A DNA stretch of 64,000 nucleotides from Dermatophagoides farinae. Its lineage: Eukaryota; Arthropoda; Arachnida; Sarcoptiformes; Pyroglyphidae. The stretch's first letter is position 1; the number at the start of each line of letters is the position of its first letter. A model generated the notes under the pieces. The model saw only the letters and a list, made by a program, of their open reading frames with translations. It was not told the origin of the DNA and ran no database searches. This document shows, in pieces, positions 32,382 through 60,330 of this stretch. The position numbers were made by a program, and so were the translations under genes. The DNA lies in NCBI RefSeq assembly GCF_024713945.1, contig NC_134680.1, positions 3,682,001 through 3,746,000 on the forward strand. Reading direction: 5' to 3'.

Positions 32382-32506
32382 TAATTTGGACACATTTGGA
32401 TAATTAAAACGAACCAAAAAAAAAATGATAAAATTTTAAACCAAAATTGATAGAAAAATGACCATATCAAAAGAAAAACATTTACCAGACTTTTTAGTTA
32501 TGATGC

Positions 32507-34539: not shown

Positions 34540-34980
34540 GAAATAAAAAAGATCGCAGAAAAAACAAATGAATCAACTTCTCGGATCATTTCAAAATTAC
34601 CAAAATTAGAAGATGCATATGATGCTGGATCAATGAATTCGCTTGAATGTACATTGATAGTGACCGAAGGAGATTCAGCGCATACGATCGTTAATAGTGG
34701 AATCAGTGTTGTAACCGCAACAAATTTGGCATTTTCCCCTTGAATGGAAAATTCATAAACGTACGAGAAGCTAACAAAAAACAAATAATGGGAAATGTTG
34801 ATATAAAATGTTTAGTGGAAATACTTGGACTAAAATACAACATAAAATATACAACAGAAGAAAGCATGAAATCACTGCGATACGGTCGATTAATGATCAT
34901 GACAGACCAAGATCCAGACTGTAACGGATTATTTGAAGAGGCTTCACAGCTGAAGAAAGAAAGAAGCTTGAACTGTTGAT
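34540..34980 (+). pseudogene. TOP2: Topoisomerase II fragment, TOPRIM region
   Basis: Reads KLPKLEDAYDAGSMNSLECT, LIVTEGDSAHTIVNSGISVV, GKFINVREANKKQIMGNVDI, SMKSLRYGRLMIMTDQDPD across two frames. These are the TOPRIM signatures of eukaryotic DNA topoisomerase II (EGDSA; RYG-LMIMTDQD-D). The piece is short, frame-disrupted and isolated, hence a gene shard. Other TOP2 shards lie at 36709 and in the two palindrome arms. Confidence 0.85.
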
Positions 34981-35450
34981 CAGCATTGACAGATCACAAA
35001 CATATAAAAGACAAAGACATGATGACAAGATCATCTCCTTTCTTGTGAGTATTTGCTTGTTCTTGTGTTTATTGATTATGTTTTTCTAGTGTTACATTCA
35101 TGTATTCATGTCCTGGTCTTCACGTCTAGATATTTTCCGTCTCAAAGTGGTCATCTCATGTTATTCGAAATATTATCAAGTAATCTACATAGTTCTCTCA
35201 ATACCGTCGTCTGGATTCCTTTTCATTCAAACAACCTTCCATGAATCATTATTATCAACGTATCCAGCAATCATTGTTTAAGCTATTATTTCCATATTTT
35301 TCATATTCATTTTTCATTTTAATTATTCAATAAATATTTTTAAATACAAACGTCTTTTTCTCGAAGTTCGCCTTGTTTCTGTTACAAGACGGTACGCATA
35401 TTACAGGACTAATAATAAATTTCATCCACTATTATTGGCCTACATTGATT
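34981..35450. other. Non-coding spacer after the TOP2 shard
   Basis: May include a little more decayed TOP2 sequence (to about 35040). The remainder is AT-rich with an AATAAA near 35330. No gene seen. Confidence 0.3.
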
Positions 35451-36230
35451 AACCCATTAATGCCCATCATCCTATACGTATGGTAACCCTAAGAATTTCT
35501 ATGCCAATTTCTATATGTTATTTTGAACAAGAGGATTGACGAACTGCTGTCCAACGAACTGAAATCTATGTATGAAAGTAAAGTGACCACAGTGCTAATT
35601 GTATTGACGTGGGATGGTTTGGTCACAGGATACTTCAGAAAGGCATGGGGTTAACAGAGAAATTCCAAGCGTATATCCAAGGTCAGGTGTTAAAGAGAAC
35701 CATGGATAGCTCCCAGGAATAAACATGATATAAAATAAACTGAATGTGTATTGGACCAAACTCTTTTATATGTAATTATTTGTATATATTCGTAATTTTA
35801 AGATTTAATAATATTGTAATGCTATTCAATTAGATGTAAATATTTTCAATGCTCAAATAAAAAGATATTCAGGCTTTCGAACAATACTGGAATCGATTCA
35901 CAAATCAGTCTAAAACGATGGTCGTAACAACAAAAAAACATGACCATCAAACAGCCAAAGTTGATTTTGGATTATTTGAGTAATATGGGAGATGTTGTTT
36001 AGTAAAATATTTCTAATTACCATTTATCAATAAAATCGAGGAAGTAGTATTTTTTGCTATTCACTAATTCAATCGATTTAACCATTCATTCACCGATTCA
36101 TGCATTTTATTGTATTGTAGACCCAAGAGAAAAAAAAATTTCTTGAATATAAAAGGTCAATTTCAAAAATTTATTTATCATTGGACTCATTTTCAAAATT
36201 AAAAATCTTGGTCGACCAAGACATTTTAGC
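35451..36230 (+). repeat. Dispersed composite repeat, copy A (includes LINE 3' piece)
   Basis: Starts TTAACCCATTAATGCCCATC, resembling a piggyBac-type end (TTAA plus CCC). From about 35540 it contains a second LINE C-terminal piece (ELKSMYES, VTTVLIVLTWDGLVTGYFRK), then non-coding sequence. The stretch from about 35520 is duplicated in the same orientation at 59280-60020 with few differences. Confidence 0.65.
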
Positions 36231-36239
36231 CTCGGTGAT

Positions 36240-36513: not shown

Positions 36514-36708
36514 GTGATGAATTATTAAATACAGGGAATCATTTCATCATCAAGATACAAGATCACAAACAAAGGACATGCCATGTTTGTAAAAAAATCA
36601 CCGTATCAATGGATCTTGTACAACAAAAGTTTCTGCTTAAATGATTTTAAATAATATCATAGTAAATTATAAAATAAATACGCTACAAATTGATGTATTT
36701 TTAATGCC
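36514..36708 (+). repeat. Composite repeat copy A, continuation
   Basis: Continues the dispersed repeat after the solo LTR; near-identical to about 60016-60200. A partial third copy is at 37427-37812. Confidence 0.6.
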
Positions 36709-37812: not shown

Positions 37813-38133
37813 GTTCAAAGTTCAATTTCTCGAAATATAAAAATTTTAAAAATGAAATGTCATAATTGTTTTTATCTCATGACTTATTTTCCTGTTTGCA
37901 AATGTATCTGATGTTTTACAAATTTTTACCAGTCCCGCCAACACTTCATCAATATTTTTTGCCGCCAGTGAATCAATAGCTTCTCGGTGTTTTTCGAATA
38001 TTTCACCAATTTCTTTTTTTCGCCTATGATAAAAATTTAAGGCCTCGCGATTTTCTCGGCCCTGTGTACTGGTATGTATTATTATACAATTAAATTTAGA
38101 AGAAAATTTAGATATTATAAATGTGTATGTAAA

Positions 38134-38618
38134 TAATTGGGGGGCAAATTTATAAGTGATTGGACAATTATGGTCCATACCACCATCCTCCCCAACAAAT
38201 AGGTTTTATAAGTGAGGGGAAGGCAAATTTATAAGTGATTGTTCACTATCCACCCCCAACACTGACTATTTTTTAAATTACTTTATGCGCAAGTGTAAAT
38301 GTGTATATGAATAATTGGGGGGCAAATTTATAAGTGATTGTCCACTATCCTCCCCAACAAATAGGTTTTATAAGTGAGGGGAAGGCAAATTTATAAGTGA
38401 TTATGCGCAAACCACTATCCACCCCCAACACTGACTATTTTTTAAATTACTTTATGCGCAAGTGTGTATGTGTATATAAATAATTGGGGGGCAAATTTAT
38501 AAGTGATTGTCCACTATCCTCCCCAACAAATAGGTTTTATAAGCGAGGAGGAGGCAAATTTATAAGTGATTATGCGCAAACCACTATCCACCCCCAACAC
38601 TGACTATTTTTTATATTA
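38134..38618. repeat. ~170-180-bp tandem satellite, left arm
   Basis: Units start TAATTGGGGGGCAAATTTAT at about 38134, 38312 and 38481, each with TATCCTCCCCAACAAATAGG and ACCCCCAACACTGAC. The mirror array is at 48898-49376, and one further unit at 51976-52130. Confidence 0.85.
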
Positions 38619-38660
38619 ACCCAGGCGGCCGCGATGGGATTTGAACCGACGTCGAATGTG
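38617..38660 (-). repeat. tRNA-like B-box fragment (left arm)
   Basis: The minus strand reads GGTTCAAATCCCATCGCGGC, matching the RNA polymerase III B-box / T-arm consensus GGTTCRANTCC. No matching A box or full cloverleaf was found, and the T-stem is imperfect. Probably a tRNA-derived SINE relic. Confidence 0.4.
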
Positions 38661-38804
38661 TATATGCGTGTGTATGTGTTAATGTGTGTAAATGGGGGAG
38701 GCAAATTTATAAATGATGGGGTAATTTTCCCCCAGACCATTATCCTCCCCCATAATATAGAAAGTAATTATGGTCGTATATAACAATCATATTTTACGAC
38801 ATTA

Positions 38805-39014
38805 CAGAAATACTTCGCTTAACGCTGCCCCGATTAGCGCTGTTTCGATATAACGCTTTGCAATTACATTGCATTGCAATACATTGTTACATTGTATATG
38901 AAGAGTAAAAATGCATTATGTAAATTATGCAAAAAAAACCCCGCTTTGCGCTGTTGTTTCGCTTTACGCTCAATATTTTTGGAACGTAACCCCGCGTTAA
39001 GCGGGGTATTACTG
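38805..39014. mobile_element. Pogo/Tigger-like MITE, copy 2 (left arm)
   Basis: 210 bp with TIRs CAGAAATACTTCGCTTAACG and CGTTAAGCGGGGTATTACTG and a TA on each side. Mirror copy at 48498-48707. Confidence 0.85.
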
Positions 39015-39339
39015 TATATTTGTATTATATCACTGTATATATGTAGCATTACTGGCTGCGCATGCTCCTGCCTATTTCTACTTTCCCCTATTTCGACCGA
39101 GAATGTCGGTGAGAGAGAACGAGCACGTTTTTCAGCCGAAAATTCCGAGTCAGGAACACTAACACACACAACTCGGCAACAAATAAAAATTCGATTTTCA
39201 CAAACGATCCCACGACATATTTATTATTAAATATTGTTCGTTTTGCATTCAATTGATTCTCACTACAACAATGGTTCATCATTATTATCAATTTGTAGAA
39301 ACCATAAAGGTGATAGTCCAATTGTATCAGTAAAAAAGA

Positions 39340-39890
39340 TGAATAGGTTTGTTAAATATTTATATGTTTCAAATTAAATTGGTTATAATTTTTTTTCTGT
39401 TAGCTGTTCGCTATTTTTAGGCATTGGTAATCTTTTGGTTTGGTTTCCATTATTACGTTATTTTGCCTATTTTCAATCATACAACATTCTCTTATTGTAA
39501 CATTGAAGAAATCTTTTCCAAACGTTTTGCGGTTCTGTCTCTGTGCATTTTTAGTTTATGGGTTAGTGTAATTGTTCATCATTAGTTTATAAAAAAAAAT
39601 TGTTTAAAAATTTTATCATTTTACAGAGGATTTTGTTTTTGTGGTTGGGTCGTTTTGGGTCCTCATCATCTCAAATTTCGTACGCTTAGTTCAACATTGG
39701 AATGTTTGTTTTCACTTATAAACGGTGATGATATGTTTGCTACATTTTTTCCACTGATGTGAAAAAAGTCTTATATGGTGGTTTAGTCGCATTTATCTTT
39801 ATCTTTTCATTTCATTGTCCATATATGTGATAGTCTCGTTGCCATAATACTCGATGCATACGAACGGTTCCTATTTTTTTTTTAATAACA
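39340..39890 (+). pseudogene. MCOLN: Mucolipin (TRPML) fragment, left arm
   Basis: Two pieces separated by an intron-like gap read NLLVWFPLLRYFAYFQSYNI, FPNVLRFCLCAFLVYG, then [19 protein letters not shown] and [16 protein letters not shown]. This is the transmembrane-5 to pore region of lysosomal TRPML cation channels ([12 protein letters not shown] is the selectivity-filter signature). Frames are broken and the flanking exons are missing. Retention of the intron shows DNA-level copying rather than a processed pseudogene. Confidence 0.88.
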
Positions 39891-40269
39891 TGAAAACTTT
39901 TTTTAATTTTTATTTAAGAAACTTTTATTTATGATTGAAATTTTTGAAAACAAAATTTTAAAAATACTTGCGCATTCACTGTCTGATCAGACAATTTGCA
40001 TCTTATTTCTTAAAGATCAATGTCATTGGAGACAGTGAAGCGCAAATGATGGTTTTAACAGCAATTGGTTCAAAAAAAAATACTTAAAACAATAATGTGC
40101 AACAATTGATTGATAATATATAATCATAAAATTTGAATTAGTAATTAAAAAATAGGAAATAAAAGAAAAGTATCACATATTTTGTTGTGTATGTCAGGGA
40201 ATTTTATGAAAACCATAACAATCCCACAGATCGAAATCCGAATGATCGAGCATCAAAGGATGCGACAAA

Positions 40270-40800
40270 CATTCATAAACATGTAAATGTAAATATAATT
40301 TGTTAGAATTACATTTGTTCTTTAAGTGTATCGAGCAATATTAATATTGCTCGATACACTTCTGGTAGATAAATTTTATGTTTATGTTGTATTATTTGTT
40401 ATTGTAATACAATTTGTTGTAATAAAATTGTTATATTGTGGTTATTTTGTAACGTCAATAAAAATAGTATATCGAATTATCGAATATTCGGAGTATTGAT
40501 TTTTATGATACTGAATCAAATGATCCAAATTCATAAATTGTTTATGTAAAACTGTTGGAATTATTTGTTCAATAATTCCAACACTCCTCTTGTGGAAATA
40601 AAGATTGGAACGTCACAAAAACTACAACAAATGACTTGACTTCCAACTTTGACCATAGAAAGGTTCCCTTTACCGCAATATCGATATGGTTGCCTTTCTA
40701 GGATTAAACCAGTCCACGTCTATGACTTGCTCTTTGAACAAATTTCCAATCATATGATATCTAAAAACGATATATTTCAATCTTGAGGCAACAGCCACTT
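40270..40800 (-). mobile_element. Copia-like fossil, left arm (LTR plus RNase H end)
   Basis: Mirror of 46740-47260. A purine tract next to TGTTGGAATTATTG marks an LTR start at about 40584 on the minus strand. The adjacent sequence resembles a Ty1/copia RNase H C-terminus. Broken fragment. Confidence 0.55.
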
Positions 40801-40959
40801 GTTTTTATCATCAAATGTTATTGGTGAAATCAATAGCTGAACCGATGCAGAAGCAAATGATGTCATTAGACCATCCATTTTTTTAGGTAATAACCATTTG
40901 CCTAGTAGTCTTTTTAAAACCTTTTGGTTTTTGAAAAAAGTAGGAGCTTCACTGTCTTC

Positions 40960-41623
40960 GATGACATTGATCAATAGTGGACCAATAAGCTCGCCAATGA
41001 TTTTTGAAACAATGACAATTGGCTATTTGTCCGTTATATTGAAAATCAAAATCAAGTGTCGTGTTTCGTGGACGATGTAAATAAAAATTTTTGCTTGATT
41101 TGATGAATCCACCACTAGTGTATCGAGCAAAATTTAATTTAGCTGTGAATTTTGAATGGAACCATCAATTACCACTAATAATGGGATCCTATTTGTGTAA
41201 TCATATACACTTGTAGCGTTATTATTAATACAATTTAATGATGATAAAATATTGCCAAAAATCCTTGTTGTGAAAACAATTGTTTCAGCACCATTTATAT
41301 CTTGATGTGGGATCAGAAACGTTCTTCCACGGCCATTGTTAAAAAAAATTATTTCATCACTTTACATATTGATTTCGATTTTAATAATGGTCATTTTTTG
41401 ATCACAAATTTTATCATCAGCAATATTTACAAGAATTTCATCAAAAATTTTATATAATTGGGGCACATATGAAACATCACGTAAAACCATTCCATCTTGA
41501 CTGTCATATACCCACATTTGCTAATGATAATAAGATTTATCAATTAAATGATTGAATTCTTAATGATCAAAAGATATCTTACCTTGGTGACTTTCTCAAC
41601 GGATCCAATATTTGGACGTATGT
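40960..41623 (-). pseudogene. TOP2: Topoisomerase II fragment, ATPase end (left arm)
   Basis: Minus strand reads RPNIGSVEKVTK, intron, then QMWVYDSQDGMVLRDVSYVP, QLYKIFDEILVNIADDK and FFNNGRG: the GHKL ATPase N-terminus of TOP2 with the conserved DEILVN Asn. An AT-rich intron with GT/AG borders is retained. Homology fades after the IFGNILSSLN block (human IFGQLLTSSN). Confidence 0.88.
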
Positions 41624-45892: not shown

Positions 45893-46430
45893 ACATATCT
45901 TGTTACGTCCAAATATTGGATCCGTTGAGAAAGTCACCAAGGTAAGATATCTTTTGATCATTAAGAATTCAATCATTTAATTGATAAATCTTATTATCAT
46001 TAGCAAATGTGGGTATGACAGTCAAGATGGAATGGTTTTACGTGATGTTTCATATGTGCCCCAATTATATAAAATTTTTGATGAAATTCTTGTAAATATT
46101 GCTGATGATAAAATTTGTGATCAAAAAATGACCATTATTAAAATCGAAATCAATATGGAAAGTGATGAAATAATTTTTTTTAACAATGGCCGTGGAAGAA
46201 CGTTTCTGATCCCACATCAAGATATAAATGGTGCTGAAACAATTGTTTTCACAACAAGGATTTTTGGCAATATTTTATCATCATTAAATTGTATTAATAA
46301 TAACGCTACAAGTGTATATGATTACACAAATAGGATCCCATTATTAGTGGTAATTGATTTCCATTCAAAATTCACAGCTAAATTAAATTTTGCTCGATAC
46401 ACTAGTGGTGGATTCATCAAATCAAGCAAA
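45842..46430 (+). pseudogene. TOP2: Topoisomerase II fragment, ATPase end (right arm)
   Basis: Exon 45842-45940 reads SRIDEPCQIEHILLRPNIGS then VEKVTK; the intron ends TTATTATCATTAG; the next exon reads as in the left arm to IFGNILSSLN. EHILLRP is the TOP2 N-terminal signature. The start of this shard lies outside the mirrored part, so the right arm keeps slightly more of the gene. Not a working gene: a small deletion disrupts the second exon and the rest of TOP2 is absent. Confidence 0.88.
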
Positions 46431-46739
46431 AATTTTTATTTACATCGTCCACGAAACACGACACTTGATTTTGATTTTCAATATAACGGACAAATAGCCA
46501 ATTGTCATTGTTTCAAAAATCATTGGCGAGCTTATTGGTCCACTATTGATCAATGTCATCGAAGACAGTGAAGCTCCTACTTTTTTCAAAAACCAAAAGG
46601 TTTTAAAAAGACTACTAGGCAAATGGTTATTACCTAAAAAAATGGATGGTCTAATGACATCATTTGCTTCTGCATCGGTTCAGCTATTGATTTCACCAAT
46701 AACATTTGATGATAAAAACAAGTGGCTGTTGCCTCAAGA

Positions 46740-47260
46740 TTGAAATATATCGTTTTTAGATATCATATGATTGGAAATTTGTTCAAAGAGCAAGTCATAG
46801 ACGTGGACTGGTTTAATCCTAGAAAGGCAACCATATCGATATTGCGGTAAAGGGAACCTTTCTATGGTCAAAGTTGGAAGTCAAGTCATTTGTTGTAGTT
46901 TTTGTGACGTTCCAATCTTTATTTCCACAAGAGGAGTGTTGGAATTATTGAACAAATAATTCCAACAGTTTTACATAAACAATTTATGAATTTGGATCAT
47001 TTGATTCAGTATCATAAAAATCAATACTCCGAATATTCGATAATTCGATACTATTTTTATTGACGTTACAACATAACCACAATATAACAATTTTATTACA
47101 ACAAATTGTATTACAATAACAAATAATACAACATAAACATAAAATTTATCTACCAGAAGTGTATCGAGCAATATTAATATTGCTCGATACACTTAAAGAA
47201 CAAATGTAATTCTAACAAATTATATTTACATTTACATGTTTATGAATGTTTGTCGCATCC
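46740..47260 (+). mobile_element. Copia-like fossil, right arm (RNase H end, purine tract, LTR)
   Basis: A piece resembling the end of a Ty1/copia polyprotein (LFKEQVIDVDWFNP, like the RNase H segment of the family) is followed by the tract ACAAGAGGAG and, at 46937, TGTTGGAATTATTG, the typical Copia LTR start. The far LTR end was not fixed. A broken fossil with no body. Confidence 0.6.
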
Positions 47261-47634
47261 TTTGATGCTCGATCATTCGATTTCGATCTGTGGGATTGTT
47301 ATGGTTTTCATAAAATTCCCTGACATACACAACAAAATATGTGATACTTTTCTTTTATTTCGCATTTTTTAATTACTAATTCAAATTTTATGATTATATA
47401 TTATCAATCAATTGTTGCACATTATTGTTTTAAGTATTTTTTTTTTTTTTGAACCAATTGCTGTTAAAACCATCATTTGCGCTTCACTGTCTCCAATGAC
47501 ATTGATCTTTAAGAAATAAGATGCAAATTGTCTGATCAGACAGTGAATGCGCAAGTATTTTTAAAATTTTGTTTTCAAAAATTTCAATCATAAATAAAAA
47601 TTAAAAAAAGTTTTCATGTTATTAAAAAAAAAAT

Positions 47635-48180
47635 AGGAACCGTTCGTATGCATCGAGTATTATGGCAATGAACAACGAGACTATCACATATATGGACAAT
47701 GAAATGAAAAGATAAAGATAAATGCGACTAAACCACCATATAAGACTTTTTTCACATAAGTGGAAAAAAATGTAGCAAACATATCATCACCGTTTATAAG
47801 TGAAAACAAACATTCCAATGTTGAACTAATCGTACGAAATTTGAGATGATGAGGACCAAAAACGACCCAACCACAAAAACAAAATCCTCTGTAAAATGAT
47901 AAAATTTTTAAACAATTTTTTTAATAAACTAATGATGAACAATTACACTAACCCATAAACTAAAAATGCACAGAGACAGAACCGCAAAACGTTTGGAAAA
48001 GATTTCTTCAATGTTACAATAAGAGAATGTTGTATGATTGAAAATAGGCAAAATAACGTAATAATGGAAACAAAACCAAAAGATTACCAATGCCTAAAAA
48101 TAGCGAACAGCTAACAGAAAAAAAATTATAACCAATTTAATTTGAAACATAAATATTTAACAAACCTATTCATCTTTTTT
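47635..48180 (-). pseudogene. MCOLN: Mucolipin (TRPML) fragment, right arm
   Basis: Mirror copy of 39340-39890 with the same pore-region segment and the same retained intron. Confidence 0.87.
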
Positions 48181-48497
48181 ACTGATACAATTGGACTATC
48201 ACCTTTATGGTTTCTACAAATTGATAATAATGATGAACCATTGTTGTAGTGAGAATCAATTGAATGCAAAACGAACAATATTTAATAATAAATATGTCGT
48301 GGGATCGTTTGTGAAAATCGAATTTTTATTTGTTGCCGAGTTGTGTGTGTTAGTGTTCCTGACTCGGAATTTTCGGCTGAAAAACGTGCTCGTTCTCTCT
48401 CACCGACATTCTCGGTCGAAATAGGGGAAAGTAGAAATAGGCAGGAGCATGCGCAGCCAGTAATGCTACATATATACAGTGATATAATACAAATATA

Positions 48498-48707
48498 CAG
48501 TAATACCCCGCTTAACGCGGGGTTACGTTCCAAAAATATTGAGCGTAAAGCGAAACAACAGCGCAAAGCGGGGTTATTTTTGCATAATTTACATAATGCA
48601 TTTTTACTCTTCATATACAATGTAACAATGTATTGCAATGTAATGTAATTGCAAAGCGTTATATCGAAACAGCGCTAATCGGGGCAGCGTTAAGCGAAGT
48701 ATTTCTG
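48498..48707. mobile_element. Pogo/Tigger-like MITE, copy 3 (right arm)
   Basis: 210 bp, mirror of copy 2, with TA on both sides and CAGTAATACCCCGCTTAACG at its left end. Confidence 0.85.
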
Positions 48708-48861
48708 TAATGTCGTAAAATATGATTGTTATATACGACCATAATTACGTTCTATATTATGGGGGAGGATAATGGTCTGGGGGAAAATTACCCCATCATT
48801 TATAAATTTGCCTCCCCCATTTACACACATTAACACATATACACGCATATACACATTCGAC

Positions 48862-48898
48862 GTCGGTTCAAATCCCATCGCGGCCGCCTGGGTTAATA
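48862..48898 (+). repeat. tRNA-like B-box fragment (right arm)
   Basis: Contains GGTTCAAATCCCATCGCGGC on the plus strand; mirror of the left-arm piece. Confidence 0.4.
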
Positions 48899-49376
48899 TA
48901 AAAAATAGTCAGTGCTGGGGGTGGATAGTGGTTTGCGCATAATCACTTATAAATTTGCCTCCCCCTCGCTTATAAAACCTATTTGTTGGGGAGGATAGTG
49001 GACAATCACTTATAAATTTGCCCCCCAATTATTTATATACACATACACACTTGCGCATAAATAATTTAAAAAATAGTCAGTGTTGGGGGTGGATAGTGGA
49101 CAATCACTTATAAATTGGCCTCCCCCTTGCTTATAAAACCTATTTGTTGGGGAGGATAGTGGACAATCACTTATAAATTTGCCCCCCAATTATTTATATA
49201 CACATACACACTTGCGCATAAATAATTTAAAAAATAGTCAGTGTTGGGGGTGGATAGTGGACAATCACTTATAAATTTGCCTCCCCCTCGCTTATAAAAC
49301 CTATTTGTTGGGGAGGATAGTGGTAGGGACCATAATTGTCCGATCACTTATAAATTTGCCCCCCAATTATTTATTA
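48898..49376. repeat. ~170-180-bp tandem satellite, right arm
   Basis: Mirror of 38134-38618 with a slightly different unit composition, so the two arrays have begun to diverge. Confidence 0.85.
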
Positions 49377-49484
49377 AACAAATTAATCTCAAGTATCAAA
49401 ATATGACTTTATTGATGGAACGACAAAAACGAATTAATAATTACAACTATCATTTAAATCACACAACACTTTATGTGTTGACTT
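49374..49484 (-). repeat. Inverted partner of 51872-51974
   Basis: Reverse complement of the segment that ends the last Dscam-like cassette, with the polyadenylation-like AATAAAGTCATATTTTGATA and TTAATTTGTTTAATAAATAA. Together they bracket the Ig cassette row. Confidence 0.75.
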
Positions 49485-49689
49485 TTTGTACTCGCTGTCT
49501 TTGTGCAAAAATGCTCGTTTTTTCTCAAGTTTCGTCTTGTTCATTTTTGATGAAATGATCATGAAATTCTCAACCATATCGAGTTATGATGATTATTTGG
49601 TACTGACAAATGTTAACCAATATTTCGGGTATGTCTCATGTTATGATAAATTTCACCTTGCAGTGTACACCGCAGACTTTCGTCTCTGT

Positions 49690-49930
49690 GTCTCTGTGCA
49701 GAAGTTAATCAAATTGAAAACGAGGTTTATGAATATTTCCTACGTGACCTATCACATGGAACAAAATATGAAATCTTTGTTAAAACTTAAATTTTGGCCG
49801 GAAGTGGACCACAATCACAAGTAGTGCTGAAACGTACACTTGATGGAGATATACCACCTGCACAACTTCTAATTGCAAAAGGAAACCACGTCAAATTCTA
49901 TTTCATTACGATGGCATCAAGGAGATAATC
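49690..49930 (+). pseudogene. FNIII-like exon of a Dscam-type gene, decayed
   Basis: After an acceptor-like CTCTGTGCAG the frame reads EVNQIENEVYEYFLRDLSHG, TKYEIFVKT, then AGSGPQSQVVLKRTLDGDIP. The Y-(x)-L-x-x-L-x-x-GT-Y and G-GP-S patterns are those of fibronectin type III modules in Dscam/L1-type proteins. A stop interrupts the frame. It lies upstream of the cassettes, as the constant part of a preceding gene would. Confidence 0.6.
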
Positions 49931-50034
49931 GTGATTCGATTACAAAAAAAACAAGACAAGGTTTGCTTTTAATTTAATTGTGGTATCGAATTTGAGGTTT
50001 AGATTAAATTCTAAATTTTTCATCATAATTTTCA

Positions 50035-50050
50035 CCAAAACGCGGCGCTA
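50035..50050 (+). promoter_or_regulatory. Candidate cassette promoter box, copy 1
   Basis: CCAAAACGCGGCGCTA, a 16-bp GC-rich word in an AT-rich setting, 103 bp before the start codon of cassette A. Identical to 51493-51508 ahead of cassette D. The conserved CGCT core recalls the CSE promoter element of clustered protocadherins. Its function is inferred. Confidence 0.55.
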
Positions 50051-50153
50051 ATTATCTTATTCAAAACTTGATTTTGAATTTTCTGTCCAAAATACTTTTT
50101 TCGATTGTGTTACTCACATTCAATGTTTGGTTACAAGAAATTTGCCTGTGAAA

Positions 50154-50410
50154 ATGCTGAATTTTATTTCCAAGTTTTTCGCTTTGATCATTTTTATTTC
50201 ATCTGTTCACAGAGATGGTAAGTCTGTTTGTCAATTATTCATTGCTTCAATTAATTCAATTTTTTATCTTTTTAAATCTAGAATCTCCAGTACTCGTTAA
50301 ACTTTATTCAAAAAATGAACAAACCAAAGGTTCAGACCTTGTGTTGACTTGTAATGTTGCCAAAGGCAGTAAACCATTACGCAACATTTCACAAACAATG
50401 TATATTAATG
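50154..50410 (+). pseudogene. sDscam-like cassette A: signal exon plus truncated Ig exon
   Basis: The signal exon 50154-50217 encodes MLNFISKFFALIIFISSVHR and ends in phase 1. After a 64-bp intron, the Ig exon starts at 50282: ESPVLVKLYSKNEQTKGSDL, VLTCNVAKGSKPL (strands A-B with the first Cys). It then breaks and runs directly into the signal exon of cassette B, so the rest of this Ig domain is lost. Confidence 0.7.
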
Positions 50411-50851
50411 AACAGGACTGAGGGAGAAACCATTGATTTATTAACAATAATAATTTTATTAACGGTGATTTTTTCAACTTTTTACTTTCATTCAATTGCT
50501 GCTGGTAATTCATTTGAATTTTTGTTTTCGATGTTTCTGAATAATTATTTTCGATAATAATTTTAGCCAAACCAATTTTGAATAAATTTCCTTCATCTGA
50601 AATTAATCTTTCCATTGATTCATCATACATATTACCATGTTCCATTTCATCAGGATCGACATCAATATTTTTTGAATGGTACAAATATGATCATAAGAAA
50701 TTATCTTCGATTGAATATAAAATTGATAATTATGATACAATGTCATCGATTGTATTCAAACGTCTTAATTCAAATGATACCGGAACCTATACATGTAATG
50801 ACAGGAATGTTCATGGTACTGATTCGATTACAACAAAACTTGTCATACAAG
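50411..50851 (+). CDS. sDscam-like cassette B: signal exon plus intact Ig exon
   Basis: The signal exon (ATG about 50411, ends 50504) has the hydrophobic core DLLTIIILLTVIFSTFYFHS then IAAG; its first residues may derive from the deletion joint. After a 62-bp intron, exon 50567-50851 (285 bp, phase 1 at both ends) encodes a complete Ig domain: AKPILNKFPSSEINLSIDSS, YILPC, FFEWYKYDHK, then NDTGTYTCNDRNVHG with both Cys, the Trp and the D-x-G-x-Y-x-C motif. The donor GTTTGA is weak. The constant exons it would join are not in view. The A-strand (P-I-L-N-K-F) is typical of Dscam Ig1 exons. Confidence 0.65.
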
Positions 50852-51027
50852 GTTTGATTGCTATTTATTATAATCGTGATTTGCTTGACCAATAGGTGGC
50901 CCTTTTAATGCATAATTTGTTTTACCAAAAATTAATTTTTTCTGGTCATCTTCATTTTTTTCTACTTGAATTGTTTATCATTTTGTTGTTGTTGTGATGT
51001 GTTGTGAAATGTTTAAAAACATTCACA

Positions 51028-51442
51028 ATGTTTAAATTGTTGCTGTTTTTCTGTATTTCATTTACGGTTATTTATGCTTCAAAAGGTTGGAGAATTTTTT
51101 TTCTAATTTTACGTTTCTAATGTAAATCCCTTGTTTTCCCTTCAGATGCGCCTCGAATTTCTAAATTGTTTTCAACAGAATTGAATCAATCTGAAGGATC
51201 AGTATTGAATATTCCATGTTCGGTTATCAGTGGTTCAACACCACTATCGTTCAAATGGTTTAAAAATGAATAAGAATTACTTAGACATAGAAATCCGGAA
51301 TTATCATATCAGATTAAAACAGATAATTTTCTATCATTTTTAACCATTTTGAAATTGAAAGCTTCTGATTCTGGAAATTATTCCTGTATCGTAGGCAATC
51401 AGTTTGGAATCGATATTCAATGGACATTGCTTCAAGTGAAAG
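51028..51442 (+). pseudogene. sDscam-like cassette C: signal exon plus Ig exon
   Basis: Signal exon 51028-51085 encodes MFKLLLFFCISFTVIYASK, phase 1. The Ig exon 51146-51442 (297 bp, phase 1-1) reads DAPRISKLFSTELNQSEGSV, LNIPCSVISGSTPLSFKWFK, LKASDSGNYSCIVGNQFG and ends LLQVK. All core Ig residues are present, but a stop codon interrupts the exon shortly after the core Trp, so this copy is dead unless edited or a sequencing error. No copy of the 16-bp box was seen upstream. Confidence 0.7.
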
Positions 51443-51492
51443 GTAGTTGTTTGTTTTTCCGTTTGTTTGTTTGTTTTTGATCATGTTTTCGG

Positions 51493-51508
51493 CCAAAACG
51501 CGGCGCTA
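51493..51508 (+). promoter_or_regulatory. Candidate cassette promoter box, copy 2
   Basis: CCAAAACGCGGCGCTA, identical to 50035-50050, 113 bp before the start codon of cassette D. Confidence 0.55.
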
Positions 51509-51621
51509 TTGATTCAGTTTTAAATCATTATTTTTTTTATCTAAATTTACCATTGTTTGATTGTTTTCACATAATGCTGTCTCTTTCTGTTCATCATAAT
51601 AATCATAAGGCATTTTTCAAA

Positions 51622-51871
51622 ATGTTTTGTCGGTTTAGTGGTCATATCATTTTAAAATGGTCTATTCAATTCATCATTTTGTTAATATTCCACACGTTAA
51701 TTATTAACGGAAATGGTAAGTTAAAACTAATTGAATTCACTTGACTTGAATTAATTTATTTCCTCTGTTTTTTTCTAACAGAATCACCATTACTTTTGAA
51801 ACAATTTGCTCATTTAACTTCGGTAAAAGGATCAGATATAGTGTTCACTTGTAATGTGGCCAAAAAGTCAA
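51622..51871 (+). pseudogene. sDscam-like cassette D: signal exon plus truncated Ig exon
   Basis: Signal exon 51622-51715 (MFCRFSGHIILKWSIQFIIL then LIFHTLIINGNG), phase 1; intron of 66 bp; the Ig exon from 51782 reads ESPLLLKQFAHLTSVKGSDI, VFTCNVAKK and is cut off at about 51870 by the repeat that also flanks 49484. It is very like cassette A (ESPVLVKLY / GSDLVLTCNVAKG), so A and D are recent paralogues. Confidence 0.7.
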
Positions 51872-52131
51872 CACATGAAGTGTTGTGTGATTTAAATGAT
51901 AGTTGTAATTATTAATTCGTTTTTTTCGTTCGATCAATAAAGTCATATTTTGATACTCGAGATTAATTTGTTTAATAAATAATTGGGGGGCAAATTTATA
52001 AATGATTGAACAATTATGGTCCATATCACCATCCTCCCCAACAAATAGGTTTTATAAGCGAGGGGGAGGCAAATTTATAAGTGATTGTGCGCAAACCACT
52101 ATCCACCCCCAACACTGACTATTTTTTATAT
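51872..52131 (+). repeat. Repeat ending the cassette row, with one satellite unit
   Basis: 51872-51974 matches 49374-49484 inverted; 51976-52130 is one unit of the 170-bp satellite, ending TTTTTTATATTAACCCA as at 38610-38622. Confidence 0.75.
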
Positions 52132-52280
52132 TAACCCATTAATGCCCATCATCCTATATATAGGATATTTACTTGAAGATGAATAATTTCAAAACTATTC
52201 ATTCAATTTTTATAAAATTAAAAGCGTTTTATTTCACGTTTATTTAGCTTAAAAATGATATATAACTCATCTGTATTATC

Positions 52281-52509
52281 TGTCGTGAAGCGGGTCGTCC
52301 TCGATGAACGGGCCTTGCTTTTGGCGGCTAATCCTACAGAAAAAGAGCGAGCAAGTGTGTGTTCAGCCTGAAAAATTGTACATGTGCTTTGTTTTTGAAG
52401 TTTTTTGTATTTATTGTATTTATTTTGATTTTTGAATTGTATTAAGATACAATCATTTAATAAACTACGTTTATTTAACTAAGAAGTTTGTCTTGGTTAT
52501 TTTTTCACA
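52281..52509 (+). repeat. BEL/Pao 5' LTR (229 bp)
   Basis: TGTCGTGAAGCGGG...TTTTTCACA. Same length as, and by eye identical to, 58034-58262. Flanked upstream by ATTATC (52275-52280), repeated at 58263-58268 after the 3' LTR: the target duplication. Confidence 0.92.
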
Positions 52510-53879
52510 TTTATTAAATGATTTGTACTGTGATCGTGATCATCTATTGATTTCGAATATTGACTTTGACGTAATTCAAGTATTACGAAGATTTTGGATC
52601 GTGATAATTTACTGGTTACGATTGTTGTGATATCGACAGCTTTTGGACGTAGCTCAATCATTACGAGAATTTTGGACTTAGACTTGGATGTAATATTGGG
52701 TACGATTGTCGTTTTCACGTTTTGGACGTAGCTTAATTATCGCAAAATTTGGACAAAGACGTAATACATTGGTTACGACAGTTGATTTGTATTTGGATCG
52801 TGATCAATTTGTGGTTGCGAATATATTGAAATTGATTCGGATCGTGGTACTCGTATCGCGAATTTTTGAAATTTGGTTTTAGTATTGTATCACCGGTATT
52901 GATTTTGGAAATTTGAATATTTGGATAACGGTTACTTCTTGGAAACGTATTGAATTTTGGACGGTACTGTTACGATCAACATATAGTAAAATATGTTGAC
53001 AATTCCGGATGATGTGAAGCAACGATTGGCTTCGGCCAGAAGTAATGTATCCCTTCTTCATGTAAGACGTTGGGACATGGCTCGGACAGAACTATTACGT
53101 TCTGAATTAGATGAATTGAACCAGAAATTGATCGAGCTAGTCGGAGAAGAAGAAATTCCCGAAGAGGAATTAAAAAGGATGAGCGACTACAACACGAAAT
53201 TAGATTTGTATATTGAACATATCAAAAAGATGAATGCGGTAGTGGTTCGAAATCAATTTGATGATCTGAACGGTACTGGTAGTGTTCATCGTAGTTCAAC
53301 CCGGTTCAATACAATCGTCCACGATTTAGCGGATACATCATTATCGAATAGATGTCGACCAGTTAAGATGGATCAGTTACCGACTTTTGATGGTAAATTC
53401 GCATTTTGGAATGCATACAAGATCATGATCAAAAATCTGTTGATTGACAACACATCGATCTCGGAAGATTTAAAGAAGTCGATGTTGTTGAAGACAATGA
53501 AAAATGAACCGGAAAGATTGGTCATGAATCTCATTGGACAACGGTTATCGTTATCGGAAATTTGGACTAGAATTTGTGCAAAGTTTGACGATCCTCAATG
53601 CGCAATTCTAGAAATCAAAAAGGATTTAGAATCCATTCCAAGAATTGAATCAGAAAATGATGTCCACAATTTGAAAAGGACAAAAGATATAGTAGAAAAT
53701 GCCAATTTGGCAATCAAAAATTTGGTTTCGGATGTAATGTTCTACACCAGGGGTCGGCAACCTGCGGCCCGCGGGCCGCATGCGGCCCATTGCAACTTTT
53801 TGTGCGGCCCACCAAAGCACCAACATAATTTGAGGAAAAATATTAAATTAAAAAAATATTGTGTCGACAAATTTGCAAC

Positions 53880-54845
53880 AATCAACATCACAAATGACAA
53901 ATCCAACCTAACACGATCAGTTCAGAATTCAAAATTCAAAATCGAGAAAATAACAAGTCCAAACTAACACAATCAATTCAGAATTCAAAATTCAAAATCC
54001 AGAAAATAACAAGTCCAAATTAACACAATCAATTCAGAATTTAAAATTCAAAATCCAGAAAATAACAAATCCAACCTAACACGTCTAGTTGAGAATCGAG
54101 AAAATAACAAATCCAACCTAACACGACCAGTTCAGAATCGAGAAAATGGCAAATCCAACCTAACACGATCAGTTCAGAATTCAAAATTCAAAATCGAGAA
54201 AACATCAAATCTAACCTAACACAACCAGTTCAGAATTTAAAATTCAAAATCGAGAAAATAACAAGTCCAAACTAACACAATCAATTCAGAATTCAAAATT
54301 CAAAATCCAGAAAATAACAAGTCCAAATTAACACAATCAATTCAGAATTTAAAATTCAAAATCCAGAAAATAACAAATCCAACCTAACACGTCTAGTTGA
54401 GAATCGAGAAAATAACAAATCCAACCTAACACGACCAGTTCAGAATCGAGAAAATGGCAAATCCAACCTAACACGATCAGTTCAGAATTCAAAATTCAAA
54501 ATCGAGAAAACATCAAATCTAACCTAACACAACCAGTTCAGAATTTAAAATTCAAAATCGAGAAAATAACAAGTCCAAACTAACACGACCAGTTCAGAAT
54601 CGAGAAAATGGCAAATCCAAACTAACACGATCAGTTCAGAATTCAAAATCGAGAAAACATCAAATCCAACCTAACACGACCAGTTCAGAATTCAAAACCG
54701 AGAAAACATCAAATCCAAACTAACACGACCAGTTCAGAATTCAAAACCGAGAAAACATCAAATCCAAACTAACACGACCAGTTCAGAATTCAAAATTCAA
54801 AATCGAGAAAACATCAAATCCAACCTAACACAATCAATTCAGAAT
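53880..54845 (+). repeat. 42/56-bp minisatellite, forward array
   Basis: Units such as AACAAATCCAACCTAACACG... of 42 bp, and longer 56-bp units with an added TTCAAAATTCAAA. A block of about 308 bp is repeated in order (for example from 53951 and again from 54259), a higher-order repeat. Confidence 0.85.
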
Positions 54846-55184
54846 TCATCACGAATTATCACGATTCATAACACAAGTGATAGAAATTCTAAAATTATTC
54901 ATATTTACTTTCAAGGTATGAATATGGTCATTGAGAGAGCGGAACATATGTTCTGTGTCAGTTGTGCTATTTATTCTATCCGATTTGTTTTTATGGTGAT
55001 TTCGAATAAAATTCATTTGTTTTATTTATAAATTTGTGAAAATTGTGAATTATCGATAAAATCAATTAATATAAGCCTCAACGTAAGTCGTATTTTGATC
55101 TTTTGCTGGTTGCTCATCAATATCTTTGTTGAAAATGATTTATTTTCAGAATTGCAAGAACAGAAGAGTACGAATCAATTAAAA

Positions 55185-55905
55185 TTCTTGCAGATCGGTT
55201 GGATTTGTCATTTTCTTGATTCTGAACTGGACGTGTTAGGTAGGACTTGTTATATTCTCGATTTTGAATTTTAAATTCTGAACTGGTTGTGTTAGTTGGG
55301 ATTTGTTATTTTCTCGATTCTGAACTGGACATGTTAGGTTGGACTTGTTATATTCTCGATTTTGATTTTTAAATTCTGAACTGGTTGTGTTAGTTGGGAT
55401 TTGTTATTTTCTCGATTCTGAACTGATCGTGTTAGTTTGGACTTGTTATATTCTCGATTTTGAATTTTGAATTCTGAACTGGTCGTGTTAGGTTGGATTT
55501 GTTATTTTCTCGATTCTGAACTGATCGTGTTAGGTTGGACTTGTTATATTCTCGATTTTGATTTTTAAATTCTGAACTGGTTGTGTTAGTTGGGATTTGT
55601 TATTTTCTCGATTCTGAACTGATCGTGTTAGTTTGGACTTGTTATATTCTCGATTTTGAATTTTAAATTCTGAACTGGTTGTGTTAGTTGGGATTTGCCA
55701 TTTTCTCGATTCTGAACTCTGAACTGATCGTGTTAGGTTGGACTTGTTATTTTCTCGATTTTGAATTTTGAATTCTGAACTGGTCGTGTTGGGTTGGACT
55801 TGTTATTTTCTCAATTTTGAATTCTCGAACTGGTCGTGTTAGGTTGAATTTGTCATTTTCTCGATTCTGAACTGGTCGTGTTAGTTTGGACATTTGCCAT
55901 TTTCG
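55185..55905 (-). repeat. 42/56-bp minisatellite, inverted array
   Basis: The same monomer family on the opposite strand (TTGTTATTTTCTCGATTCTG and so on), making the element a long imperfect hairpin. Confidence 0.85.
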
Positions 55906-58033
55906 AATGAAATTTTATTGTGGCACGTTACATATTTAAATAGGAATTTTTATGAATTTGTGGCACGGACATCAAAAAAGGTTCGCCATCCCTGTCGTAT
56001 ATGATATAAAAGCACTATTTAAGTTATATTTGAATATGCGGCCCACATAAAAAAATTTTATTTTGAAAATGGCCCGCTGTCCGAAAAAGGTTGCCGACCC
56101 CTGTTCTACACGATCAACCTGATTCAGGCAGTAGCCGCCAAATTCTACTATAAAGCCCATCGTCATATGTTGGCCAAGATAAAAGACTTTGATCAATTAG
56201 TCAGCTATATTGATAAGCTATACGATGAAGCTCTTTGTTATGATTACAATAAGATTCGTAAAGATAGTCCATTGAAGAAACAAGAGCCACCGATGATATC
56301 GAATAGCACAGCCGCCATCACGACTAATTGCTGTTTCATTTGTGATAAATTGCATCGAAATAATTTTGAATGTTTGAAAAATTATGATGTCAAAACAGTA
56401 GCCAATCTTATCAAATCAAAAGGATTGTGCTTTAGATGTTTGAAAAGAGGACATTTAAGTAAGAATTGTCAAATGTCATCGAAACTTAAATGTGATAAAT
56501 GTCCACGTCTTCATGCTACCGAAATGCCTGAAGTGATTATTGAATTGTTTCAAACGAAACCCAAAGTGATCGACGAATCTAGTCCAGCTACGGAAGAATT
56601 AACGGTTGGAAATACAGCAGCGATATCAGTGGTTGATCAATCGAAAAATGTTTTTGAGATCAAAAAGAATTCTAAGTCAGAAAGTCGACCGTTATTGTAT
56701 GGGTCATGTAATGGAATTCAGAGTCGTATGCTGTTTGGTTATGGTTCGGATGTTTCGTTGATCGACAAAGAATTGGTAAAAGACAAATCAAATGATTCTG
56801 ACAAAAATCGTATCGTCTATTCGTCGTCACCACTAGTAGGAACGGAAGCAAGTCGACGAAAAGTATCGTTGGAAAAACATAAAGCCAATTTATGTAATGT
56901 AAATATTTGTACCAGACCAATCATCGATTTGCCAGAAAATGAAAATATTGATGAACCAATTATTGAAAATGATAAAATTATTGATCATTCTATGAATGAA
57001 TTATTTTTGAAATCTGATCCTGAATTATTGAAGTTTGAAATTGAAAATGATTTGAACGTTAACGACGAAGACGTTGACGATGATTTGAAAATTGTACGAA
57101 AAGAGAATGGACGATATGAGGCTCGATTGCCTTTTCTTTCAGATATTCGTCCAGCCAATGATTTTGATAAGGCTCTTATTGTATGGAATAAATCGTTCAA
57201 ACAATCAGAAAATAAGAGCATGAAAAACGAATATGAAAAACAATTATTGGCTTATGTTGCTAACGATCAAGCAATGGTAACGGACGATCCAAACGGCTAT
57301 TTGTTGCCGTACCATCCGATTTATCGAGAATCCGCGTCCGCACCGTTGTGTATTGTTTTCAACGGATCGTTTGGATTTGACGTTTCGAATCAGTTGCTAT
57401 GGAAAGGCCATGCACACGGTCTTAACATTTTTGATCATCTCATGAAATTCCGCAAAGGAAAATTCGCCGTATCTGCCGATCTGTCAAAGGCGTTTCTGCA
57501 AATGAAAGTTTCAACATTCGGGTTAGTGTCTTCACCCGTGATATTGACATCGGTTACTAAAAAATTATTGTGTGAACAAAATTTTGGAACTATTGCTAAA
57601 TCCCGAATCAAACAGCATCATGAAATGTTATTGCATGATGGTATTGAAACTACCATTCCTAATTTGTATCATATTGAAAAGAAATCTGTTTATTATAGTA
57701 AATTTTGTCAAATTGAAAAGCGAAAACCTGTCGATCAACCATTTACTCAATTACCATCAACCCGAACAAGTTTTGTTGCTATTCTTGAAGCTGTATGTAT
57801 TGTTTTCTTTGATCTATTGCGATATCGGAACAGAAAAAAGTTTTTTGGTTTGTTGGTCATCGGTCTTGGTTCTTGTAATCATGATCTCTTAATGAAAATC
57901 GAAAAACTATGGAAGCAAAAGTATTTCGATTCATTGATTCAACGTAGACGTTGTGATTGGCCATTGAAATTCAAATTCTTTGAAATCTTCTACGATCGGT
58001 TACGGACATATCCTTTTGGAATCGGCGGGGGAG

Positions 58034-58262
58034 TGTCGTGAAGCGGGTCGTCCTCGATGAACGGGCCTTGCTTTTGGCGGCTAATCCTACAGAAAAAGAG
58101 CGAGCAAGTGTGTGTTCAGCCTGAAAAATTGTACATGTGCTTTGTTTTTGAAGTTTTTTGTATTTATTGTATTTATTTTGATTTTTGAATTGTATTAAGA
58201 TACAATCATTTAATAAACTACGTTTATTTAACTAAGAAGTTTGTCTTGGTTATTTTTTCACA
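58034..58262 (+). repeat. BEL/Pao 3' LTR (229 bp)
   Basis: Matches the 5' LTR; preceded by the purine tract GCGGGGGAG and followed by ATTATC. Confidence 0.92.
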
Positions 58263-59277
58263 ATTATCTTTATCTAAGTACAGTTAATTTGATCTTGATT
58301 GTCGAAAAGTCGGATTTTCTGAATGACTAGAATTCAAAGTGTTGTAAGACCATTTTATAATCCGAAAATGATAACAATTTATATTAGAAAAATGTAAAAT
58401 GATCTTCAAATAACATTTTTAATTAGGAGTTATCAAATTAAAATTAGATCTAATTACCGCAATGATGATTTTCCGGTGATCCTATATATAGGATCATGGG
58501 CATTCAAAGTACTAAAATATCAACTTCTGTTATTATTGAAACCTATGTATTACATCGTAGTATCTCTTGTTTTCTATGTAGGACTAGCATATTTTTTCAA
58601 ACAAAAATCTGTTTAATCTATTTATCAGTGTTTCTCAACCATAGGGTCACCATCAATACAAGACAAGACAATCAATACAAGATTATTACAAAAATTCCGG
58701 ATATTTCCGGACTAAATCCAGACGTATGGTAACCCTAAGAATTTCTATGCCAAATTGTTAGAGTGCTATTCTTTTTATTAGTGAGAGAAACAAATTATTC
58801 AAACTCCACACCAGCAATAAGAATCGCATTTTATTCTGAATCTGGCCATTGAAGATCGACAAAGAAAGTGAAAAATTAGATTATAGTTATAATAAACTAC
58901 GATGTTCCATAACATCGTAGTGATCGTATATCGATAATACGTTCGCAGTCATGATTGGGAATTGAACACTATTGAAATATTTGTGGATAAAATAAAGCTT
59001 TATTGATCAAGTATACGCAGATCATAGATCCCAGATACTCGATGGATAATGATAATTTGGGATGGGTTTATATACTAGATTACAATCAATTAGAAACATT
59101 AATTAGGTTATAACATTCATTAAATCAAAGTCGAACATTCCATTTAAAATATTCAAACATCACAACTTTGATCATTAACATTCCAAAACAATCATGTTTT
59201 GGATTTCCAACGTTACATAGTTTTGATAAGAAAAATGAACTGTTTCTTGTAGGTTGAAAAGATAATAAAACAGTATA
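58263..59277. other. Repeat mosaic without genes
   Basis: Contains the piggyBac-like right end (about 58478-58505), a hAT-like terminus CAGTGTTTCTCAACCA at about 58627, and a piece shared with 35478-35510 (CGTATGGTAACCCTAAGAAT). No gene seen. Confidence 0.45.
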
Positions 59278-60330
59278 TGTTATTTCGAACAAGAGGATTA
59301 TTCCGAACACAGAATTGACAAACTGCTGGCCAACGAACTGAAATCTATGTATGAAAGTAAAGTGACCACAGTGCTAATTGTATTGACGTGGGATGGTTTG
59401 GTCACAGGATACTTCAGAAAGGCCTGGGGTTAACAGAGAAATTCCAAGCGTATATCCAAGGTCAGGTGTTAAAGAGAACCATGGATAGCTCCCAGGAATA
59501 AACATGATAAAATAAACTGAATGTGTATTGGACCAAACTCTTTTATATGTAATTATTTGTATATATTCGTAATTTTAAGATTTAATAATATTGTAATGCT
59601 ATTCAATTAGATGTAAATATTTTCAATGCTCAAATAAAAAGATATTCAGGCTTTCGAACAATACTGGAATCGATTCACAAATCAGTCTAAAACGATGGTC
59701 GTAACAACAACAAAAAAAACATGACCATCAAACAACCAAAGTTGATTGAGGATTATTTGAGTAATATGGGATATGTTGTTTAGTAAAATATTTCTAATTA
59801 CCATTTATCAATATAATCGAGGAAGTAGTATTTTTTGCTATTCACTAATTCAATCGATTTAACCATTCATTCACCAATTCATACATTTTATTGTATTGTA
59901 GACCCAAGAGAAAAAAAATTTCTTGAATATAAAAGGTCAATTTCAAAAATTTATTTATCATTGGATTCATTTTCAAAATTAAAAATCTTGGTCGACCAAG
60001 ACATTTTAGCCTCGGTGATGAATTATTAAATACAGGGAATCATTTCATCATCAAGATACAAGATCACAAACAATGGACATGCCATGTTTGTAAAAAAAAA
60101 TCACCGTATCAATGGATCTTGTACAATAAAAGTTTCTGCTTAAATGATTTTAAATAATATAATAGTAAATTATAAAATAAATACACTACAAATTGATGTA
60201 TTTCCAATTTGTAAAATGATTTCGAAGAGAAAAACCGAATATATCAATTGTATTTGATAAAATAACAATAATATCCAATATATCCAATATATGCAATTTT
60301 TGTTGTCTGTGTGCCCATCATCCTATATAC
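59278..60330 (+). repeat. Dispersed composite repeat, copy B (includes LINE 3' piece)
   Basis: Same-orientation near-copy of 35520-36239 plus 36514-36700, without the solo LTR. Begins with the LINE C-terminal piece (ELKSMYES, VLTWDGLVTGYFRKAWG) and ends GTGCCCATCATCCTATATAC. Confidence 0.8.

Follow-up and report, generated by a model that had tools for sequence, protein, structure and literature searches.

A probable detached and decaying sDscam fragment between inverted repeats in Dermatophagoides farinae

Chelicerate sDscam genes of the alpha type carry their variable exons as cassettes, each composed of two exons that encode one Ig domain and each preceded by a promoter, as laid out in PMC4835542. 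They are the arthropod system nearest in layout to the clustered protocadherins, in which, according to PMC7811963, PMC6881428 and PMC4978886, a forward CTCF site with a CGCT box stands at a similar distance before most alternative first exons. Here we describe a row of sDscam-like cassettes in 64,000 nucleotides of DNA from the mite Dermatophagoides farinae (contig NC_134680.1, positions 3,682,001 to 3,746,000); 'the window' denotes this whole stretch, and all coordinates are counted from its first letter.

Similar to the published sDscam-alpha arrays (PMC4835542, PMC5775551), the row consists of tandem two-exon, one-Ig cassettes with phase-1 splice sites and homologous upstream regions, and an FNIII exon of the same family lies nearby. 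Unlike those arrays, it holds just five units, of which Z, A and D are truncated and C carries a stop; its FNIII exon lies upstream rather than downstream and is closest to a beta gene; and no constant Ig exon was found in the window. The row, which sits on an island (49489-51860) enclosed by inverted arms, is probably a detached, decaying fragment of a chelicerate sDscam gene. The sDscam family itself is already known; what is new is the apparently detached, repeat-bounded state and a candidate promoter element.

Anatomy and decay of the cassette row

Four tandem units, A to D, occupy 50154-51862 on the + strand, each with a leader exon separated by a 60-66-bp intron from its phase-1 Ig exon, and what we take to be the remnant of a fifth unit, Z, precedes them. 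Their exons are as follows.

49907-49960, + strand: putative cassette Z, tail of a fifth Ig exon, left limit uncertain, placed by alignment to the tail of B's Ig exon
50154-50217, + strand: cassette A leader exon, from its ATG
50282-50421, + strand: cassette A Ig exon, truncated, with a stop at 50419-50421
50408-50504, + strand: cassette B leader exon, without its original ATG; the in-frame ATG at 50408 falls inside the remnant of A
50567-50851, + strand: cassette B Ig exon, frame open over 94 full codons with 0 stops
51028-51085, + strand: cassette C leader exon, from its ATG
51146-51442, + strand: cassette C Ig exon, with a single in-frame TAA at 51271-51273
51622-51715, + strand: cassette D leader exon, from its ATG
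51782-51862, + strand: cassette D Ig exon, cut by the right inverted arm

Leader donors lie at 50218 (A), 50505 (B), 51086 (C) and 51716 (D), and Ig acceptors end at 50281, 50566, 51145 and 51781, giving introns of 64, 62, 60 and 66 bp, respectively; the leader end is read in phase 1 in all four. An initial annotation of this DNA had already described four leader and Ig-exon units with 60-66-bp introns, with a full Ig exon in B, one stop in C and truncation of A and D, and our analysis bears this out. The Ig donors start at 50852 (B) and 51443 (C), each one base later than that annotation had placed them (50851 and 51442).

Each of the four Ig acceptors is preceded, 50-75 bp upstream, by a phase-1 GT that ends a strongly hydrophobic leader opened by an ATG (10-residue hydropathy 2.64-3.22), whereas 1.9% of 938 control AG sites, drawn from gene-poor parts of the window, passed the same test at a hydropathy of at least 2.5. 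This control led us to reject the leaders as a spurious product of AT-rich sequence. For A, the script scored highest with a GT lying 12 bp into the annotated intron, which keeps the frame of the donor at 50218; in the case of B, its choice was the ATG belonging to A's Ig remnant, the one at 50408 being the only in-frame ATG found for this cassette.

On their DNA alignments, A is sister to D and B to C. The A-D and B-C pairs scored 96 and 103, neither of which was reached in 500 Markov shuffles, and A-C gave a weaker score of 57 (equalled by 1 of 500); alignments of A-B, B-D and C-D were not significant (P = 0.54, 0.28 and 0.62). When promoters were included, A (50016-50362) aligned with D (51474-51862) from promoter through Ig exon, and A (49996-50417) with C (50851-51275). 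Because these pairs align together with their promoters, the unit that was duplicated probably comprised promoter, leader and Ig exon.

Z (49907-49982) aligns to the end of B's Ig exon and the start of the intron behind it with a score of 51, compared with null maxima of 37 (2000 shuffles) and 38 (genomic stretches), and gave no signal against C's tail (P = 0.81). Its donor, ACAAG/GTTTG at 49961, is like that of B. We take it from this alignment as the tail of a fifth Ig exon just upstream of A; on the left, it overlaps the FNIII match described below, whose right end is uncertain.

The units are decayed as follows. Z is a tail only, A's Ig exon stops at 50419 and continues into the leader of B, B has lost its own start and upstream region, C carries its one TAA, and D is severed at 51861 by the inverted repeat arm. 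An intact Ig exon is present in B alone among the five units.

Family identity of the Ig and FNIII exons

In Pfam, B matched I-set (5.6e-10) and C matched Ig_3 (7.5e-12); A was marginal at 0.06 and D had no match. We ranked PDB chains for B and C among the best 60 of 162 and the best 60 of 232 matches, respectively, counting chains of at most 126 amino acids as single-Ig chains; in an sDscam-alpha gene, the variable Ig is homologous to Dscam Ig7 and forms sDscam Ig1. Among the matches listed for C, 5 of 6 single-Ig chains were sDscam Ig1, the best being 7y5j, 7y4x, 7y95 and 7y54 (42.6-37.6 bits), followed by neuregulin-1 at 37.2 bits. Among those listed for B, 4 of 6 were sDscam, with 7y5j (35.5 bits) and 7y73 (33.0 bits) ahead of CAR (25.0 bits). 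These PDB codes are assigned to sDscam in PMC10154414. Titin tops the whole-chain lists for both exons with matches scattered across several of its domains, and its best domain among the matches listed for C reached 27.0 bits versus 42.6 for the single-domain chain 7y5j. An AlphaFold model of B, built from the B+C alignment, is an Ig fold (mean predicted local distance difference test score of 79.7 for the best of five models, 55-62 for the others).

Immediately upstream of Z stands a further exon.

49702-49935, + strand: putative broken sDscam constant exon, FNIII2 into FNIII3, right limit uncertain and overlapping Z, from PDB matches

It reads as the latter half of FNIII2 followed by the beginning of FNIII3, has an in-frame stop at 49788-49790 and a frameshift near 49900, and abuts Z's tail directly. 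With the one stop masked and the two frames joined by hand, its two best PDB matches out of 16 were 7y8s (1.3e-10) and 7y6e (2.9e-10), which are FNIII1-3 and FNIII2-3 of sDscam beta2v6, and the next was receptor phosphatase delta (4.6e-6). Without the frame join, Pfam matches stayed sub-threshold at 0.033 (Dscam C-terminal Fn3-like) and 0.037 (fn3). The FNIII-like exon that the initial annotation had seen upstream of the cassettes is thus closest to FNIII2-3 of sDscam beta2v6.

The single-domain ranking of B and C, the FNIII2-3 match and the two-exon cassette layout make sDscam the most likely identity of the row, in agreement with the initial annotation. That annotation had named a titin-like or lachesin best match as the contrary outcome; 7y5j leads the single-domain chains instead. 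Our literature search found nothing joining sDscam cassettes with mites; for Dscam together with Dermatophagoides it led to a single paper, on trombidid mites, and in a broader search on Dscam and astigmatan mites the 12 papers listed of 293 made no mention of Dscam. Relatives sought in prokaryote genome contigs (298 pattern matches) and viral contigs (377) yielded none.

A six-frame scan of the whole window (2222 fragments of at least 18 amino acids), queried with the B+C Ig profile and the A, D and FNIII peptides, gave convincing Ig or FNIII matches only in the island; the best outside it reached 0.083 with the profile and 0.82 with the A peptide. Over the 12 kb downstream to the window end, it detected no further exon of either the Ig or the FNIII kind, its queries not extending to transmembrane and cytoplasmic exons. 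Six-frame Pfam searches of three segments (33.0-37.95, 41.5-51.4 and 58.5-63.45 kb; E <= 0.1) returned only Ig-domain families at B and C and a weak Axin motif (0.034); as they overlooked the pieces of FNIII, topoisomerase and mucolipin, they carry little weight as negatives, and the 2222-fragment scan is the better one. Given that the window shows no constant Ig or FNIII exon behind the cassettes, use of the row as a live gene here is unlikely. An sDscam-alpha gene has common Ig2-3, FNIII1-3, transmembrane and cytoplasmic exons after its cassettes; since the constant region here amounts to one exon in the wrong place, we call the row a fragment of the sDscam family.

A candidate promoter element

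Upstream homology is preserved before A, C and D, each of which has a GC-rich element there; the upstream region of B is deleted.

50035-50050, + strand: candidate element of cassette A (CCAAAACGCGGCGCTA), starting 119 bp before the ATG
50889-50904, + strand: candidate element of cassette C (CCAATAGGTGGCCCTT), in register with A and D, starting 139 bp before the ATG
51493-51508, + strand: candidate element of cassette D, a 16-mer identical to that of A (CCAAAACGCGGCGCTA), starting 129 bp before the ATG

In its sequence, the element resembles the CTCF-binding CSE/CGCT box, and we treat it as a candidate with modest statistics. The A/D 16-mer has exactly two copies in the window and no others even when three mismatches are allowed (shuffle mean 0.04). 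When the upstream regions of A, C and D were aligned with MAFFT without guidance, all three elements fell in one column block, and the GC-richest 12-mers of each region fall inside them. The C element is identical to that of A and D at 11 of 16 positions (P = 0.005 against random 200-bp stretches, 0.0035 in a Markov control). When compared with the CTCF consensus, C agrees at 12 of 14 positions and A/D, by hand count, at 10 of 14, yet the latter contains GGCGCT. With two mismatches allowed, this consensus has 3 matches in the window versus 1.27 expected, a number reached by 15 of 100 shuffles. The similarity of the C element weakens the candidate in that it is partly expected, the upstream regions of A and C being homologous anyway; so does the 16-mer identity of A and D, for which the run-length chance is ~0.06 at 67% background identity. 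In addition, the element sits before dead cassettes, which we counted against reading it as a switch.

Like the CSE/CGCT promoters of protocadherins (PMC7811963, PMC4978886 and PMC6881428), the row has a forward-oriented, GC-rich element that precedes alternative first exons at a roughly constant distance, with GGCGCT in A and D and AGGTGGC in C. Unlike them, the distance to the ATG is 119-139 bp rather than ~200 bp, the protein family is unrelated, only three sites are present, C matching A and D at 11 of 16 positions, and the CTCF site is putative. By analogy, each sDscam cassette promoter may have carried a forward, position-fixed CTCF-type element equivalent to the protocadherin CSE/CGCT box, an idea to which we give a slim chance. 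If it were true, arthropod sDscams and vertebrate protocadherins would have converged on per-cassette promoters and, beyond that, on one and the same DNA switch behind stochastic promoter choice, which would be preserved in this fossil cassette row. The parts of the sDscam papers that were examined name no DNA element selecting one cassette promoter: in a word search of the main texts of two of them, 'motif' was absent and 'CTCF' occurred only in one reference title. A search joining Dscam and CTCF with chelicerates led to the paper with that title and to one other, and none joined insulators and CTCF with mites and Chelicerata. The position-fixed element before A, C and D offers a concrete, testable candidate for cassette promoter selection.

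Inverted arms, neighbouring mosaic and competing explanations

Inverted arms enclose the island, and D terminates at one of them.

49223-49488, + strand: left inverted arm, made up of the last ~165-bp repeat unit and 115 bp of unique flank
51861-52138, - strand: right inverted arm

The left arm pairs with 51861-52133 at 93.4% identity. Both arms have a common 115-bp inner flank and an identical stopping point, with identity ceasing after TTTTTG at the island edge. The repeat unit of ~165 bp (161 and 169 bp by Tandem Repeats Finder) is present as two arrays and one single unit. To the left, the island adjoins a larger inverted duplication.

38130-41620, + strand: left arm of the large inverted duplication, carrying broken pieces of mucolipin and topoisomerase II genes
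45904-49373, - strand: right arm of the large inverted duplication

These 3.5-kb arms (38130-41620 against 49373-45904) are 97.8% identical over 3504 columns and flank a 4.3-kb spacer. The duplication ends outward in ~165-bp tandem repeat arrays like the arms of the island, and the array at 48889-49373 of its right arm is common to the island's left arm. Within the duplication arms are a mucolipin fragment (1.7e-28, two exon pieces joined) and, at 45.9-46.6 kb, an N-terminal piece of topoisomerase II (9.6e-17 for the copy in the right arm). The cassettes therefore sit in a mosaic of broken host genes between inverted repeats. To the right of the island, a long terminal repeat (LTR) retrotransposon occupies 52281-58267, with 234-bp end repeats that are 99.6% identical; it is probably recent and BEL/Pao-like, the latter because of a weak match (0.0012, under the Pfam cut-off) to DUF1759, a domain that we take to be linked to the BEL/Pao group.

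Foldback-type elements and transduplicating DNA transposons have long inverted arms of variable direct-repeat number around host gene fragments. The island is like foldback elements in that its inverted arms of direct repeats (about three units versus one) enclose host gene fragments. It is unlike either class in that no transposase was recognised, no target-site duplication was seen by eye, the window contains its cargo only once and its ends are not sharply defined.

We propose that the fragment comprises one constant FNIII2-3 exon fused to the tail of Z, followed by four leader-Ig cassettes, of which A, C and D retain their upstream region. In the live gene, transcription of each cassette would have started at a promoter of its own, and splicing in phase 1 would have joined its leader and Ig exon to shared constant exons, so that the products displayed alternative homophilic N-terminal Ig domains. 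Deletions would then have brought FNIII next to Z, and the Ig exon of A next to the leader of B; C would have been broken by a stop and D cut by an inverted repeat arm, with expression presumably lost. According to PMC4835542, sDscam genes are clustered, and in Tetranychus urticae two of them point the same way with 4 kb between them; with such an arrangement, a deletion from the constant region of one gene into the cassettes of the next would yield the FNIII-then-cassette order, and we infer this step for the fusion to Z. Because the inverted repeat copies adjoin a duplication with the same end repeats and broken host genes, we infer that the fragment was moved to, or left in, this gene-fragment mosaic, by a foldback-like capture or a palindromic rearrangement. 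If so, the island illustrates how cassettes can be detached together with their promoters and end up among other gene remnants, with implications for the growth, movement and death of cassette arrays in chelicerate genomes.

Several observations weigh against a detached sDscam fragment. Capture is not proven, because neither a target-site duplication (by eye) nor a second copy of the cassette cargo in the window nor sharp element ends were found. The constant exons could lie beyond the window. B's Ig frame is open, the chance of 94 stop-free codons at its base composition being ~0.0006, and B may have decayed late or still be used. The FNIII exon matches a beta gene, whereas the cassette layout is alpha-like. 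Finally, the B+C profile separates 7y5j from neuregulin-1 by a thin margin (45.8 versus 45.6 bits), and Foldseek with the B model was not discriminating, with sDscam at ranks 3, 10, 17 and 35, 4 among the 50 matches listed.

The initial annotation had pictured a cluster shattered by repeats, and the row is indeed decayed and bounded by repeats; that it is an in-place cluster is probably not right, as a detached fragment fits the inverted arms and the neighbouring mosaic better. An in-place row would be the 5' end of an sDscam gene at its original locus, flanked by two opposite-orientation insertions of one repeat. Two insertions of one repeat family would likewise make inverted arms, the repeat existing here as two arrays and one unit, and sDscam clustering as in Tetranychus would account for FNIII upstream of cassettes. 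We nevertheless consider this origin unlikely, though credible, because D's missing half and further Ig or FNIII exons do not resume beyond the repeat in the window, because both arms have the same inner flank and the same stopping place, and because the adjoining block has the same end repeats around unrelated gene fragments. A working chimera, in which A's promoter and leader splice past A's dead Ig exon to that of B and then to a distant constant region, could draw on the upstream element, ATG, leader and strong donor (GTAAGT) that A retains, on the open Ig exon of B with its acceptor and phase-1 donor, and on the cross-cassette joins reported for scorpion sDscams in PMC4835542. The 12 kb up to the window end without a detected Ig or FNIII exon, the BEL/Pao-like retrotransposon and other repeats that intervene, and the restriction of intact Ig exons to one unit of five make it very unlikely. 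That the Ig exons come from another cell-adhesion family with an alternative-promoter array seems extremely unlikely to us: titin tops the whole-chain lists, many Ig families score, neuregulin-1 almost ties with 7y5j in the B+C profile and the fold search did not discriminate, but sDscam is favoured by the order of the single-domain chains for B and C as well as by the FNIII2-3 match, and a two-exon leader-Ig array is the sDscam-alpha unit published in PMC4835542. On that ranking and the FNIII match we rejected a titin-like or other Ig family, the near tie with neuregulin-1 notwithstanding.

The window holds further repeats and gene pieces. A separate topoisomerase II fragment, covering TOPRIM, lies at about 34540-34925 (3.1e-34 to DNA topoisomerase 2-alpha, two frames joined). 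Large minisatellites of ~56 and 42 bp occupy 53.9-55.9 kb inside the LTR retrotransposon, and similar ones occur at 61.6-62.1 kb. A terminal-like motif around TGCCCATCATCCTAT is common to 52130-52166, 35448-35476 and 58479-58504; these sites perhaps mark the termini of a small inverted-repeat element into which the LTR retrotransposon inserted. A dispersed repeat (~97%) at 35518-36239, 36514-36700 and 59298-60203 has a short open reading frame with TWDGLVT; two of its open reading frames had no Pfam match, and a diverged relative lies near 33.1-33.3 kb. A 389-bp inverted pair (31377-31764 and 32009-32396, 97.7% identical) forms another short palindrome in the same gene-poor stretch.

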